Of a stretch of 64,000 nucleotides of DNA, positions 18,768 to 23,047 are shown one piece after another; position 1 is the stretch's first letter, and every line of letters starts with the position of its first letter. A program made the position numbers and the translations under genes. The stretch comes from Urechidicola croceus (lineage in GTDB: Bacteria; Bacteroidota; Bacteroidia; Flavobacteriales; Flavobacteriaceae). The stretch covers positions 3,307,501 through 3,371,500 of the forward strand of contig NZ_CP017478.1 of the NCBI RefSeq assembly GCF_001761325.1, in the 5' to 3' direction. The notes under the pieces were generated by a model, which was given only the letters and a program-made list of their open reading frames with translations, did not search any database and was not told the origin of the DNA.

Positions 18768-19775
18768 ATGTACAATTCGAAAATAACTGGAATGGGCTAT
18801 TTCGTTCCTGATAATATAGTAACGAATGATGATTTATCCAAAATGATGGATACAAATGATGCTTGGATACAGGAGAGAACCGGAATAAAAGAAAGAAGAT
18901 GGATTAAAGAGGGTAGTGGAGAAACTTCGGCTTCAATGGGAGCAAAAGCTGCAAAAATAGCTATTGAAAGAGCAGGATTAACTAAAGATGATATAGATTT
19001 TATAGTTTTTGCAACTTTAAGCCCTGATATGTATTTTCCTGGATGTGGGGTGCAAGTTCAAGATATACTTGATATGCCAACTATAGGAGCTTTAGATGTA
19101 CGTAATCAATGTTCAGGTTTTATATATTCACTTTCTGTTGCAGATCAATTCATTAAAACAGGAATGTATAAAAATGTTTTAGTTATAGGATCTGAATTTC
19201 ATTCTGGAGGTTTAGATAAGACTACTAGAGGAAGAAGTGTTTCAGTAATTTTTGGTGATGGTGCAGGTGCTGCAGTTTTATCACGAACTGAAGATAATAC
19301 TAAAGGAATATTATCTTCACATTTACATTCTGAAGGTAAACATGCAAGAGAATTAGTTGTGGAAGGACCTAGTATTGCACATTGGGTTCCTGAGATATTA
19401 GAAGCTAATGATCCTAATGATACATCATATTATCCTTATATGAATGGTCAATTTGTTTTTAAAAATGCTGTAGTACGCTTTTCTGAAGCAATTATTGAAG
19501 GTTTAAAGGCAAACAATGTTGAAGCCTCAGATATTGATATGTTAATTCCGCATCAAGCGAATTTAAGAATAGCTCAATTTATTCAAAAGAAATTTGGATT
19601 GTCAGATGATCAAGTTTATAATAATATTATGAATTATGGAAATACTACTGCTGCGTCAATAATTATTGCATTAACCGAAGCATGGGAAAAAGGTAAAATA
19701 AAAGACAATGATTTAGTTGTACTTGCAGCTTTTGGAAGTGGATTTACTTGGGGGAGTGTTATAATGCGTTGGTAA
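18768..19775 (+). CDS. fabH: 3-oxoacyl-ACP synthase III
   Basis: This 335-residue protein has the KAS III catalytic triad: C115 (NQCSGF), H262 (PHQANLRI) and N292 (NYGNTTAAS). It starts MYNSKITGMGYFVPDNIVTN. KAS III condenses acetyl-CoA (or a branched acyl-CoA) with malonyl-ACP to begin fatty-acid synthesis. No other fab genes are adjacent. The sequence falls in the subgroup of stand-alone FabH-like synthases, so priming of a secondary lipid rather than bulk fatty acid synthesis is possible. It diverges from htpG and is closed by a strong terminator. Confidence 0.9.
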   Translation: MYNSKITGMGYFVPDNIVTNDDLSKMMDTNDAWIQERTGIKERRWIKEGSGETSASMGAKAAKIAIERAGLTKDDIDFIVFATLSPDMYFPGCGVQVQDILDMPTIGALDVRNQCSGFIYSLSVADQFIKTGMYKNVLVIGSEFHSGGLDKTTRGRSVSVIFGDGAGAAVLSRTEDNTKGILSSHLHSEGKHARELVVEGPSIAHWVPEILEANDPNDTSYYPYMNGQFVFKNAVVRFSEAIIEGLKANNVEASDIDMLIPHQANLRIAQFIQKKFGLSDDQVYNNIMNYGNTTAASIIIALTEAWEKGKIKDNDLVVLAAFGSGFTWGSVIMRW

Positions 19776-19796
19776 TAGAGTCATTAATAATAATTT

Positions 19797-19830
19797 AAAA
19801 ATCCATCTGATTTCTCAGATGGATTTTTTT
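19797..19830 (+). terminator. Hairpin terminator after fabH (hairpin A of repeat unit 1)
   Basis: AAATCCATCTGA and TCAGATGGATTT pair as a long perfect stem followed by eight T residues. A degraded copy of the same hairpin occurs 397 bp downstream at 20194-20227, marking the start of a second repeat unit. Confidence 0.92.
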
Positions 19831-19974
19831 TAATTCAAATAATTTAAAGCTCCCCACATCCTTAAACTATTTTATGTTATTTAGTAATTTCCGGATTACT
19901 CAATAAATAACAACTCAAAGATATTTATGATTAATATCAAACACAATACCCAATAACAATGATTTTATTATATC

Positions 19975-19989
19975 ACGGAAAACCGTTAG
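19975..19989 (+). repeat. ACGGAAAACCGTTAG element, copy 1
   Basis: The core ACGG-AAAA-CCGT is an inverted repeat within a 15-bp element identical in three places (19975, 20371, 20554). The flanking 35 bp upstream is nearly identical in copies 1 and 2. It may be an operator or a small RNA stem; function unknown. Confidence 0.75.
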
Positions 19990-20017
19990 ACTTAAATAAA
20001 ATGTTAAAAAAAAGAAA

Positions 20018-20041
20018 AACCTTCAAGAAAACTTGAAGGTT
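20018..20041 (+). terminator. Terminator-like hairpin B1 inside the repeat region
   Basis: AACCTTCAAG and CTTGAAGGTT form a perfect 10-bp stem with an AAAA loop. A purine-rich tract precedes and ATTAT follows, so termination strength is uncertain. No annotated gene lies between this hairpin and the fabH terminator. Confidence 0.6.
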
Positions 20042-20370
20042 ATTATCAAATAATTTAAAGAACCCCAAATACTCTAAATTATTCGATTAATTTATTATAT
20101 GCTTGATTATCAATTAAATGATTGGATAAATGTACATTATTTTTTTGAATTATACAAATACAAAATTAAAATAATAAAATTTATATAACAGCAAAAATCC
20201 ATCTACTTAAAGCAAATAGATTTTTGATTTTTTAAAACACTTTAAAGCTCCCCACTTCTTTAATTTATTTTAAATAATTTAGAATCATTTTTTGATAACT
20301 AAATCATATATCAAATTTACGAATGAAATACATAGTACACAATACCCAATATCAATGATTTTAATATATC

Positions 20371-20385
20371 ACGGAAAACCGTTAG
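20371..20385 (+). repeat. ACGGAAAACCGTTAG element, copy 2
   Basis: Identical to copy 1 and 396 bp from it. It is preceded by AATACCCAATATCAATGA, which differs from copy 1 at a single base over that stretch. Confidence 0.75.
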
Positions 20386-20416
20386 ATTTTAGATTAAAAC
20401 TAAATTGAAAAAAGAA

Positions 20417-20444
20417 AACCTTCAAGTTGCCTTGAAGGTTTTTT
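20417..20444 (+). terminator. Terminator hairpin B2 inside the repeat region
   Basis: AACCTTCAAG and CTTGAAGGTT form a 10-bp stem with a TTGC loop, followed by TTTT, the expected form of a plus-strand intrinsic terminator. Nothing coding lies upstream for more than 600 bp on that strand. Confidence 0.7.
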
Positions 20445-20553
20445 ATCAAATAATTTAAAGAACCCCAAACACTCCAAATTATTTAATTGATAGTCAAATA
20501 TAATTAATTATATAATACCCTACTAAATTAAAAGACTAAAAAATGTAAATATC

Positions 20554-20568
20554 ACGGAAAACCGTTAG
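20554..20568 (+). repeat. ACGGAAAACCGTTAG element, copy 3
   Basis: Identical core 183 bp after copy 2, with only ATATC kept upstream. It lies 85 bp from the stop codon of the convergent TonB-type gene. Confidence 0.7.
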
Positions 20569-20593
20569 TAAACATAAAGTTTATATAAATACG

Positions 20594-20630
20594 AAAAGAG
20601 GCTTTATTTAAAATGAAATAAAACCTCTTC
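20594..20630 (-). terminator. Terminator of the TonB-type receptor gene
   Basis: On the reverse strand GAAGAGGTTTTATTT pairs with AAATAAAGCCTCTTTTC, followed by a T-containing tract. It lies 24 bp beyond the stop codon of the receptor gene. Confidence 0.75.
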
Positions 20631-20653
20631 AACCAACTTAAAAATAACTAATT

Positions 20654-23047
20654 TTATAAGAATCCACCGCTACCTTGTGATTCGTTGTTATCTCTGCTTT
20701 TTCTTCTTCTTGCTTTGTTCTCTCCTCCTCCAAAACGATACATGAAACCTAAGTAGGCAGTTCTACTTTCCCAATTAAATTGACCGTTTGATGGATATGG
20801 GTTTTCAGATTTAAACTTAAATCTCATACCTTTAAAAATATCATTAACTCTAAAACTTACAGTTCCTTTACCTTTTAGTACGTTTAAACTTGCACCAGCA
20901 TTTACCATAGTCATAGGGTCAGTTTCAAATTGAATACTTCTTCCACCACCTCGGTACATTGCAAATAATTGAAATCTTAAATTTTTGGATGCTGTAAAAC
21001 TATTACTTATTCTTGCATTAAAAGCATTGTTGGTTACTTCTAATTGATTGTCATTTGCAATTCCAGATTCCTTTTGAACATATAAATCAGCACTTGCATT
21101 TGCTCTCCACCATTTTGCAATTTTATAATTAACCGAAGCTTCAAGTCCATAGCGGTTATTACTATCTGTGTTGGTGTATGATAGAAGTACTTTATCTTCG
21201 TCAATTGGATCGATGTTTAAAATACGTGTAATATTGTCATTTACTTTTCTGTAAAAAGTACCAAATGTTACAGACCCATTGTTAATTTGTCTAGTGTAGT
21301 TGAATTCATAAGAATTAGTAAACTGTGGTTCTAAATCAGGATTACCAACCGAGGTGATTCTCGGAGTACTCCATTCTCTAATTGGGTTTATTTGTCCTAA
21401 TGAAGGTCTGTCTACTCTACGACTGTAACTCACTTGGAATTGATTTTTTTCACTAGGATTGTAGGTGATAAAAGTTGATGGGTAGATTGAAAATATTTCA
21501 TCAGTAACATTTTGAGTTTCATTTCCTTTAATAAATGTTCCGTCTATTTCATATTGCTCAAGTCTTGCACCGACTTGAATAGTAACTTTTTCAAACTTGT
21601 GACCATAAGTCGCATAAGCAGAATAAATGTTTCTATCATATGTAAAATTAGTAAGAGGAGTAGTTCTTATTGTTCCATCGGGCGCAAATTCTAATTGGTC
21701 AGTATTATTTCTATTGTCAGATGTATTCGTTCTTACCTCTAGACCTAATTCTAGTTTACCTTTTTCAGATATAGGATTAGTATAATCAAGGTTGTAAAGT
21801 TGATTTTCACGTGTGTTATTTATATCTGCAATATAATTATTGAAGCCATCAGTAAGATTTAAAATATCACTATTTTCTGCACTTTCTGGACTGTCTGATT
21901 TTGAATAGTTTGCTTCAAACTCTAAATTATGTCCTTCTTTTTCAAACTCGATTTTATAATTTGCGTTGTATGTTTCATTATCACTTTTAGAATCTTGAAT
22001 ATTGAATGCATCTATTACAGGCATTCCATTATCACTAATTTTAGTTGTTCCTTGAGAATAATTATCATATCTATTTTGGATTGTATATAGCGATAAAGTA
22101 TTTTTTTCATTAAGATAAATATCTGCCCCAAATTTTAGTAAGTGTGACGAGTTGTCGCTATCAAATTCAAATAAGGAGTTAGAATTATTATCCGACCTAT
22201 TAACAAAACCATAGTTGTCATTTTTACCAGTATTGTAACCGTAGTTTGTAAAGAAATTTACTTTTCCAGTTTTATAATTCATATCTAAAGAGCCGTTAAA
22301 ACGAGTGTTTACCCCTCTAGTCACACCAAGATTTACACTTCCGTTAAAACCTTGATTGGCATTTTTATGAAGAATGATATTTATCATTCCACTCATTCCT
22401 TCTGGATTGTATTTGGCAGATGGATTTGTAATTAATTCAACTTGTTTTATTGAAGTTGAAGGAATCTGTTTTAATAATTGAGCAGCACTTATATTTGTAG
22501 GTTTTCCATCAACAAGTACTCTCACATTTTCATTTCCTCTTAAACTGATATTTCCAGTTTGAGAATCAACATTAACAGAAGGTACATTGTTTAATAATTC
22601 AGAAGCTGTAGTTCCTGCAGATGTTAAATCTTTACCAACATTTATTACCTTTCTATCAATTCTTTGTTCAATGGTTGAGGTTTCGGCAATTACAGTAACC
22701 TCGTCTAGTTGAGCAGCATCAATAACCAAAGCAACAGTACCTAAATTATGGTTTGCTGTTTCTTTTGTAAAGTTTACTTTTCTTGATTCCGTTTTATATC
22801 CTATAAATTGAATTTCGATTATATTTTCTCCTGCAGGAATTTTTTCAATGGTAAATAAGCCATTGTCATTAGTAATACCTCCAGTCAAAATTTCATTTTT
22901 AGCGTCTTTGACTACAATATTTACATACGGTAGTTCTTCTTGTGTCGTTGCATCTATTATTTTTCCAGATATAGATCCAATTTGTGGTACTTGAGCATAG
23001 GTAATCATGCTTACAAAAAGCATAAGAATGCTTAATAGGTTTTTCAT
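20654..23047 (-). CDS. TonB-dependent-receptor-like outer membrane beta-barrel protein
   Basis: This 797-residue protein has a signal peptide (MKNLLSILMLFVSMITYAQ), a carboxypeptidase-like regulatory domain (about 23-105), a plug domain (VINVGKDLTSAGTTASELLNNVPSVNVD, VRVLVDGKPTNISA, VELITNPSAKYNPEGMSGMINI) and an outer membrane beta-barrel. It ends in a glycine- and arginine-rich tail (GGGENKARRRKSRDNNESQGSGG). This is the CarboxypepD_reg/OMP_b-brl_3 type common in Bacteroidota, without a SusD partner. The substrate is unknown; siderophore, metal or peptide uptake are possible. It has an ECF-like promoter and a strong terminator. Confidence 0.9.
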   Translation of the reverse strand: MKNLLSILMLFVSMITYAQVPQIGSISGKIIDATTQEELPYVNIVVKDAKNEILTGGITNDNGLFTIEKIPAGENIIEIQFIGYKTESRKVNFTKETANHNLGTVALVIDAAQLDEVTVIAETSTIEQRIDRKVINVGKDLTSAGTTASELLNNVPSVNVDSQTGNISLRGNENVRVLVDGKPTNISAAQLLKQIPSTSIKQVELITNPSAKYNPEGMSGMINIILHKNANQGFNGSVNLGVTRGVNTRFNGSLDMNYKTGKVNFFTNYGYNTGKNDNYGFVNRSDNNSNSLFEFDSDNSSHLLKFGADIYLNEKNTLSLYTIQNRYDNYSQGTTKISDNGMPVIDAFNIQDSKSDNETYNANYKIEFEKEGHNLEFEANYSKSDSPESAENSDILNLTDGFNNYIADINNTRENQLYNLDYTNPISEKGKLELGLEVRTNTSDNRNNTDQLEFAPDGTIRTTPLTNFTYDRNIYSAYATYGHKFEKVTIQVGARLEQYEIDGTFIKGNETQNVTDEIFSIYPSTFITYNPSEKNQFQVSYSRRVDRPSLGQINPIREWSTPRITSVGNPDLEPQFTNSYEFNYTRQINNGSVTFGTFYRKVNDNITRILNIDPIDEDKVLLSYTNTDSNNRYGLEASVNYKIAKWWRANASADLYVQKESGIANDNQLEVTNNAFNARISNSFTASKNLRFQLFAMYRGGGRSIQFETDPMTMVNAGASLNVLKGKGTVSFRVNDIFKGMRFKFKSENPYPSNGQFNWESRTAYLGFMYRFGGGENKARRRKSRDNNESQGSGGFL

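Follow-up and report, generated by a model that had tools for sequence, protein, structure and literature searches.

Several redundant small RNAs (sRNAs) that are switched on by one response regulator are known from Vibrio, where Qrr1-4 are controlled by LuxO, a sigma-54 activator. The GacS/GacA-RsmY/RsmZ system of Pseudomonas, in the description given in PMC4353343, combines a LuxR/GerE-type regulator with a palindromic upstream activating sequence and short structured sRNAs with G-rich loops (RsmY and RsmZ are 118 and 133 nt long), and it is in these respects that the locus presented here resembles it. Within the Bacteroidota, FopS and GibS of Bacteroides thetaiotaomicron are described as multicopy paralogous sRNAs with sigma-A type promoters, like ours, which act at the translation starts of exported-protein mRNAs, GibS having an additional motif in its promoter, for an unknown factor (PMC11697453). 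Rfp18 of Flavobacterium psychrophilum, which belongs to the same family as the genome studied here, is likewise described as a structured sRNA, with predicted trans targets among exported proteins (PMC9723704). Bacteroidota mRNAs mostly lack Shine-Dalgarno sequences according to PMC6847099, and post-transcriptional control in this group has been little explored. Among the matches listed for open-licence PMC full texts, no description of the array or of the regulator discussed below was recognised.

The window (the whole stretch of DNA that was analysed, 64,000 nucleotides) contains an 878-bp gap between fabH, which ends at 19775 on the plus strand, and a convergent TonB-dependent receptor gene on the minus strand (20654-23047). 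No listed ORF of at least 60 amino acids lies in the gap, which holds a 61-nt repeat family in four copies, a 90-nt pair with 79% identity at a distance of 396 bp, and a 20-nt block, ATATCACGGAAAACCGTTAG, that occurs three times with 0 mismatches. The gene borders and non-coding repeats reported in the preliminary description were thus borne out, the repeats being clearly above chance: ATCACGGAAAACCGTTA gave 3 matches against 0.17 expected (at most 3 mismatches) and TTTAAAGnnCCCCA 4 matches against 0.47 expected (at most 1 mismatch). The comparison with Rfam that had been proposed at the same time assigned the repeats to no family, as Rfam 15, including Flavo-1, gave 0 matches at the gathering threshold in the window and 11 related loci; the gap contained 10 sub-threshold matches, the best with an E-value of 0.03.

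The gap appears to be an array of four sRNA genes on the minus strand, transcribed in the order B2, A2, B1, A1. Each predicted gene comprises a Bacteroidota-type (sigma-A-type) promoter, a UGGGG-loop hairpin and a Rho-independent terminator. Our main reading, to which we assign a probability of roughly 0.7 on the basis of sequence comparison, is that such a four-gene array exists and that part of it is activated by a NarL/LuxR-type response regulator via a palindrome. The features are as follows.

20595..20630, minus: terminator of the receptor gene, outside the array (terminator call)
20552..20567, no strand: palindrome TCACGGAAAACCGTTA upstream of B2, presumed response-regulator site; perfect match, centre at -57.5 from TATATTTG
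20495..20502, minus: -7 box of B2, TATATTTG, no TTG at -23 (promoter match)
20407..20490, minus: predicted sRNA B2, 84 nt; fold -27.6 kcal/mol, z -5.7
20487-20445, minus: G-loop hairpin of B2, loop UGUUUGGGGUU
20442-20415, minus: terminator of B2
20369..20384, no strand: palindrome upstream of A2; perfect match at the fixed box distance
20312..20342, minus: promoter of A2, TTG-N20-TAAATTTG (promoter match)
20190..20307, minus: predicted sRNA A2, 118 nt, with 5' hairpin; fold -29.4 kcal/mol, z -4.7
20274-20231, minus: G-loop hairpin of A2 with interior loops, loop AAGUGGGGAG
20226-20192, minus: terminator of A2
20127..20157, minus: promoter of B1, TTG-N20-TACATTTA, no palindrome upstream (promoter match)
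20008..20122, minus: predicted sRNA B1, 115 nt; fold -28.6 kcal/mol, z -4.9
20087-20045, minus: G-loop hairpin of B1, loop UAUUUGGGGUU
20041-20018, minus: terminator of B1
19973..19988, no strand: palindrome upstream of A1; perfect match at the fixed box distance
19916..19946, minus: promoter of A1, TTG-N20-TATCTTTG (promoter match)
19797..19911, minus: predicted sRNA A1, 115 nt; fold -33.2 kcal/mol, z -6.2
19911-19876, minus: 5' hairpin of A1
19872-19837, minus: G-loop hairpin of A1, loop AUGUGGGGAG
19828-19797, minus, also plus: terminator of A1

The RNA lengths were set by placing TAnnTTTG at -12 to -5, as in the sigma-A consensus of Flavobacterium psychrophilum (PMC9723704). The preliminary description had proposed a duplicated locus for short non-coding RNAs, and this proposal is sustained by folding, arm-swap covariation, conservation beside fabH, promoters and terminators, apart from the strand, which had been taken to be plus and is minus in our reading. 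Its hairpins had been regarded as plus-strand terminators, but of the six terminator-like sites in the gap (0.4 expected) five were called on the minus strand, among them the one at 20630-20595 behind the receptor gene, and the hairpin at 19797-19828 alone is a candidate on the plus strand as well. Likewise, no promoter had been thought necessary here, whereas minus-strand matches to TTG-N20-TAnnTTTR precede A1, A2 and B1, and B2 shows TATATTTG but lacks the TTG. Taken by itself, that promoter pattern turns up in the window about as often as chance predicts (10 matches against 7.5 expected), as do the promoters called by a sigma-70 scan, made for another promoter type (9 against 9.6). The apparent fragment of a third unit corresponds to the palindrome in front of B2, the first unit on the minus strand, and the plus-strand motifs CTCCCCAC and CCCCAAA are indeed present, but as the complements of minus-strand hairpin loops.

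All four predicted RNAs fold better than expected (z-scores -4.7 to -6.2), and none of them was matched by any of 200 shuffles. The loops are constant, being either UUUGGGGUU (B-type) or GUGGGGA (A-type), while the stem sequences drift with retention of pairing; the A-type RNAs have in addition a 5' hairpin, starting from the first base that follows the predicted start in A1 and from the second in A2. When the stem arms of 10 hairpins were swapped, the mean stem score fell from 9.8 to 5.6 and 9 of the 90 swaps reached 9.8, as did 0 of 5000 derangements of the arms, in a test that is biased in favour of pairing because L319, L314 and L290 were spotted partly via their stems. These 10 were taken from 17 tabulated hairpins, with the near copies B2, A2, p1, p2, G002_1, G001_1 and G010_1 omitted and G007 not entered; A2 has the weakest simple stem (score 6) and folds well with interior loops.

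Three of the four sRNA genes (B2, A2 and A1) are preceded by a palindrome, TCACGG-AAAA-CCGTTA, which we presume to be the site of the regulator (TCACGGAAAACCGTGA). The perfect form, TNACGGNNNNCCGTNA, occurs six times in the genome of 3,426,122 bp, always with a spacer of AAAA or TTTT. Three of these sites are in the gap and one lies before paired copies of the unit at 1991.5-1991.9 kb, so four precede predicted sRNAs; of the other two, one (1515024) precedes a response-regulator gene and one (1935305) an RHS/HNH operon. If one mismatch is tolerated, the pattern is no more frequent in the genome than its reversed control (20 against 36). In 13 other genomes taken together, which were picked mostly for carrying the regulator or the site, TNACGGWWWWCCGTNA had 53 matches and its reversed control 6. 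At the RHS site (L178, 1933.0-1945.0 kb) the perfect palindrome stands 84 bp upstream of the RHS-repeat / DUF6443-HNH / DUF4262 operon; at 1948.0 kb (L176) a gene that looks similar has a one-mismatch palindrome in front of it.

In the window, all three palindrome centres are located exactly at -57.5 from a -7 box on the minus strand, and on the plus strand no TAnnTTTG follows any of the three within 120 bp (the chance at a random position being 0.004 per site); this geometry sets the predicted direction of transcription as minus. In 11 of the 14 tabulated sRNA loci the centre, measured from the T of TAnnTTTG, lies between -54.5 and -57.5, the exceptions being B1, which has no site, and the loci of G003 and G013. 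The same range was found for 10 of 13 tabulated regulator promoters, with G003, G005 and G015 failing and G016 submitted to the script and not matched by it. A TTG at -23 is present in 9 of those 11 sRNA loci (absent in B2 and G010_1), where for the two-box loci G002_1 and G007_1 the box with TTG at -23 was used. Further copies of the palindrome occur at -31.5 and about -80. Other genomes are less regular, as box and TTG were both at the expected place in 6 of 19 site regions from six genomes. The fixed distance suggests that the palindrome is an activator site. A perfect palindrome is lacking at B1 and at the copies p2, L319, L314, L290 and L328 elsewhere in the genome, which implies that part of the sRNA family answers to something else.

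The regulator gene (1514303-1514965) encodes a NarL/LuxR-type protein with a Response_reg receiver and a GerE domain, both above cut-off. It stands in the order rho, DUF4293, palindromes, regulator, a 92-aa protein and two TPR-HisKA_3-HATPase kinases, where the gene named rho is presumed to be such from its sequence. Since the pattern before the three sRNA genes also precedes this gene, the regulator probably switches on the sRNAs. The palindrome is found before the regulator gene in most genus members and also in G166, G273 and G388, which belong to other genera; in G005, G015 and G059 different palindromes were recognised by eye at this position. At 1e-65, 29 of 397 family genomes have a match to the regulator. 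It was not detected at 1e-40 in G004, G012 and G013 (82%, 92% and 78% complete), in G011 the match ends at residue 130 within a longer fused ORF, and in G006 the gene is full of stops. In G007 (L233) and G008 (L229) palindromes also precede a second pair of kinase and regulator genes, the start region of which carries CCCCACA, complementary to the A-type loop.

Units of this kind are found beside fabH in congeners and are hence conserved outside the strain. Of the 14 genus genomes, 12 yielded fabH (it was not found in the incomplete G005 and G008), and eight of these 12 have a UGGGG hairpin beside it: four hairpins in G000, two each in G002 and G007, and one each in G001, G003, G009, G010 and G013. 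In G003 and G013 the hairpin is kept, with an imperfect palindrome only and no TAnnTTTG box at this place. In the gap of G010, the promoter region contains a second TGGGG match. The hairpin is absent beside fabH in G004, G011 and G012 (gaps of 241, 67 and 68 bp), and in G006 the region is recognisable as an sRNA unit of which the G-run has gone. Across the gap from fabH stands the receptor gene in G000, G002, G003 and G009-G013 and the RNase Z gene in G001, G004 and G007. An exact 22-mer comprising B loop and stem was recovered from 5 records of 84,980 species, namely four congeners and one Ruminococcaceae MAG.

Unit and regulator tend to be kept or lost together. Among 12 judged genus members, seven have both, four have neither intact (G004, G006, G011 and G012), one has a unit without a detected regulator (G013) and none has the regulator without the unit; in other words, no intact regulator was found in five members, and in four of these the unit is absent or degenerate (Fisher, one-sided, 0.010, a value that ignores shared descent, and G004, G011 and G012 may represent one event). 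Outside the genus, G015 and G016 possess the regulator and have no unit beside fabH. In G016, two tandem units were found elsewhere (L034), on one strand, with TATATTTG or TATCTTTG, the hairpin AAACATT(UGUGGGG)AAUGUUU and a terminator; the palindrome upstream of the first unit has one mismatch and is about 100 bp from the box, which is not the usual distance. A covariance model of eight B-type copies (R1) gave E-values below 1e-10 only in G000, G001, G002, G007 and G010 among 60 relatives, and only in G000 and G002 among 397 family genomes, a sample that holds few genus members. Weaker R1 matches elsewhere were taken as chance similarities of AT-rich, terminator-like sequence, and R1 reveals no wider family.

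Judged from sequence alone, the genome contains several paralogous candidates, four in the gap, two at 1991.5-1991.9 kb and more elsewhere, and the array has the combination of promoter, hairpin and terminator that marks a multicopy family of trans-acting sRNAs. Candidate RNAs with a UUUGGGG loop were observed at L319 (2411.8-2412.0 kb), L314 (2109.6-2109.8 kb), L290 and L328 of the same genome, two of these loci having tandem copies about 180-200 bp apart.

As to mechanism, the palindrome would be bound by the NarL/LuxR-type regulator of this two-component system, whose own promoter contains the site too, and the phosphorylated regulator would activate B2, A2 and A1, its own operon and a few other genes. 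The sRNAs may then act in trans, the exposed UUUGGGGUU or GUGGGGA loop pairing with AACCCCAAA or UCCCCAC near translation starts, and the several copies would provide dose and redundancy. Action through base pairing is the weaker step, for which we see about even odds. The A-loop complement KTCCCCAC was found 48 times in the genome against 18 for the reversed control, 27 of the 48 being antisense in coding genes, and for the B-loop complement the counts were 50 against 43, which is no enrichment. From -45 to +25 around start codons, eight complements lie in the sense and one in the antisense orientation (counted over 48 A-type and 47 of the 50 B-type matches, as two within the array and one duplicate context were excluded), and four of the eight sense matches belong to proteins that look exported by eye. 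Around 15 intergenic CCCCAC places the mean stem was 3.7 against 2.9 for shuffled flanks, with 6 of 2000 shuffles as good, in a post hoc test in which most hairpins are equally readable as G-loops on the opposite strand. A loop-to-loop network, in which regulator-activated sRNAs with two kinds of UGGGG loop would meet CCCC-motif RNAs as targets or sponges, is a speculative extension that we consider doubtful. If the loops do pair with C-rich starts, they would illustrate target choice by sRNAs in mRNAs that offer no Shine-Dalgarno sequence to be covered. An sRNA array linked through one operator to an identified response regulator is open to testing from end to end.

Several C-rich loci were recorded besides. 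At about 1277.2 kb on the plus strand (L267/L302) there is a candidate structured, terminated non-coding RNA in which UUCCCCACA is complementary to the A-type loop and AACCCCAAA to the B-type loop; it is a possible sponge or target. In G166 (L222, 1487.9-1490.9 kb) the palindrome and a promoter with GGGTATTG and TACATTTG precede a short stretch of non-coding DNA that contains ACCCC and a hairpin with the loop CUUCCCCCAAA, ends near a convergent gene and is C-rich instead of G-rich. Clusters of TCCCCAC, some of them within small hairpins, occur in long intergenic stretches at 663.4-665.2 kb (L284), 2978.8-2979.4 kb before lpdA (L283), 795.0 kb (L285) and 1596.2 and 1597.9 kb (L271).

Other explanations of the locus can be conceived. 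If the repeats were terminators for the plus strand, together with degenerate duplicates behind fabH, and held no RNA genes, the hairpin at 19797-19828 would indeed make a good terminator for fabH, but the remaining three unit terminators qualify on the minus strand only, as do the promoter boxes at fixed distance, and loops and pairing are conserved in congeners; this reading, which we rejected on terminator strand and promoter geometry, has very little probability left. A conserved short peptide is even harder to credit: some B copies can be read as TTG-GGG-TTC-TTT-AAA-TTA-TTT, yet G002_2 and p2 run into a stop or shift immediately, so that the frame is not kept among the copies, and the stem arms change together rather than at third codon positions.

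Two further alternatives retain the minus-strand sRNAs. The palindrome could be bound by another factor, or be a mere promoter-proximal DNA element, with the regulator simply sharing it. Its presence before genes outside the operon and the retention of the unit in G013, the 78% complete genome without a detected regulator, fit such a view, which nevertheless strikes us as improbable given that the palindrome recurs before the regulator in the genus and in three genomes of other genera and that unit and regulator share the same fate in 11 of the 12 judged members. Alternatively, the RNAs could be activated by the regulator and serve as decoys for a protein that binds the UGGGG loop, like RsmY/Z for RsmA. 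That the loop is the most constant part while the stems vary, that several copies suit titration and that B-loop complements lack enrichment all agree with a decoy, and we regard it as rather unlikely: the B-type loop has no GGA, and the sense bias at start codons fits pairing better, small as the numbers are. A decoy for CsrA in particular was rejected, as CsrA/RsmA was above cut-off in 0 of 40 relatives (with one sub-threshold match, in G051), the control search being positive in 3 of 14 reference genomes.

The preferred reading, an sRNA array partly activated by the NarL/LuxR-type regulator, can now be set against the known systems. In contrast to Qrr/LuxO, it involves a regulator of the NarL/LuxR type and sigma-A promoters. 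It would work like Gac/RsmYZ but fails three tested Gac/Rsm features, namely the site, the GGA loops and CsrA. The Pseudomonas upstream activating sequence, as given in PMC4353343, is TGTAAGCATTCTCTTACA, of the TGTAAG..CTTACA type, whereas here the palindrome is TCACGG-N4-CCGTGA; GGA is repeated there, while here the loops have UGGGG, with no GGA in the B loop UGUUUGGGGUU and one in the A loop (GGGGA). A further difference is that the regulator here has a site in its own promoter. Compared by description, FopS/GibS comprise fourteen scattered members (PMC11697453) and Rfp18 is a single gene (PMC9723704), whereas our locus is a tandem array with a candidate activator; going by these descriptions, FopS/GibS and Rfp18 are its nearest counterparts by lineage.
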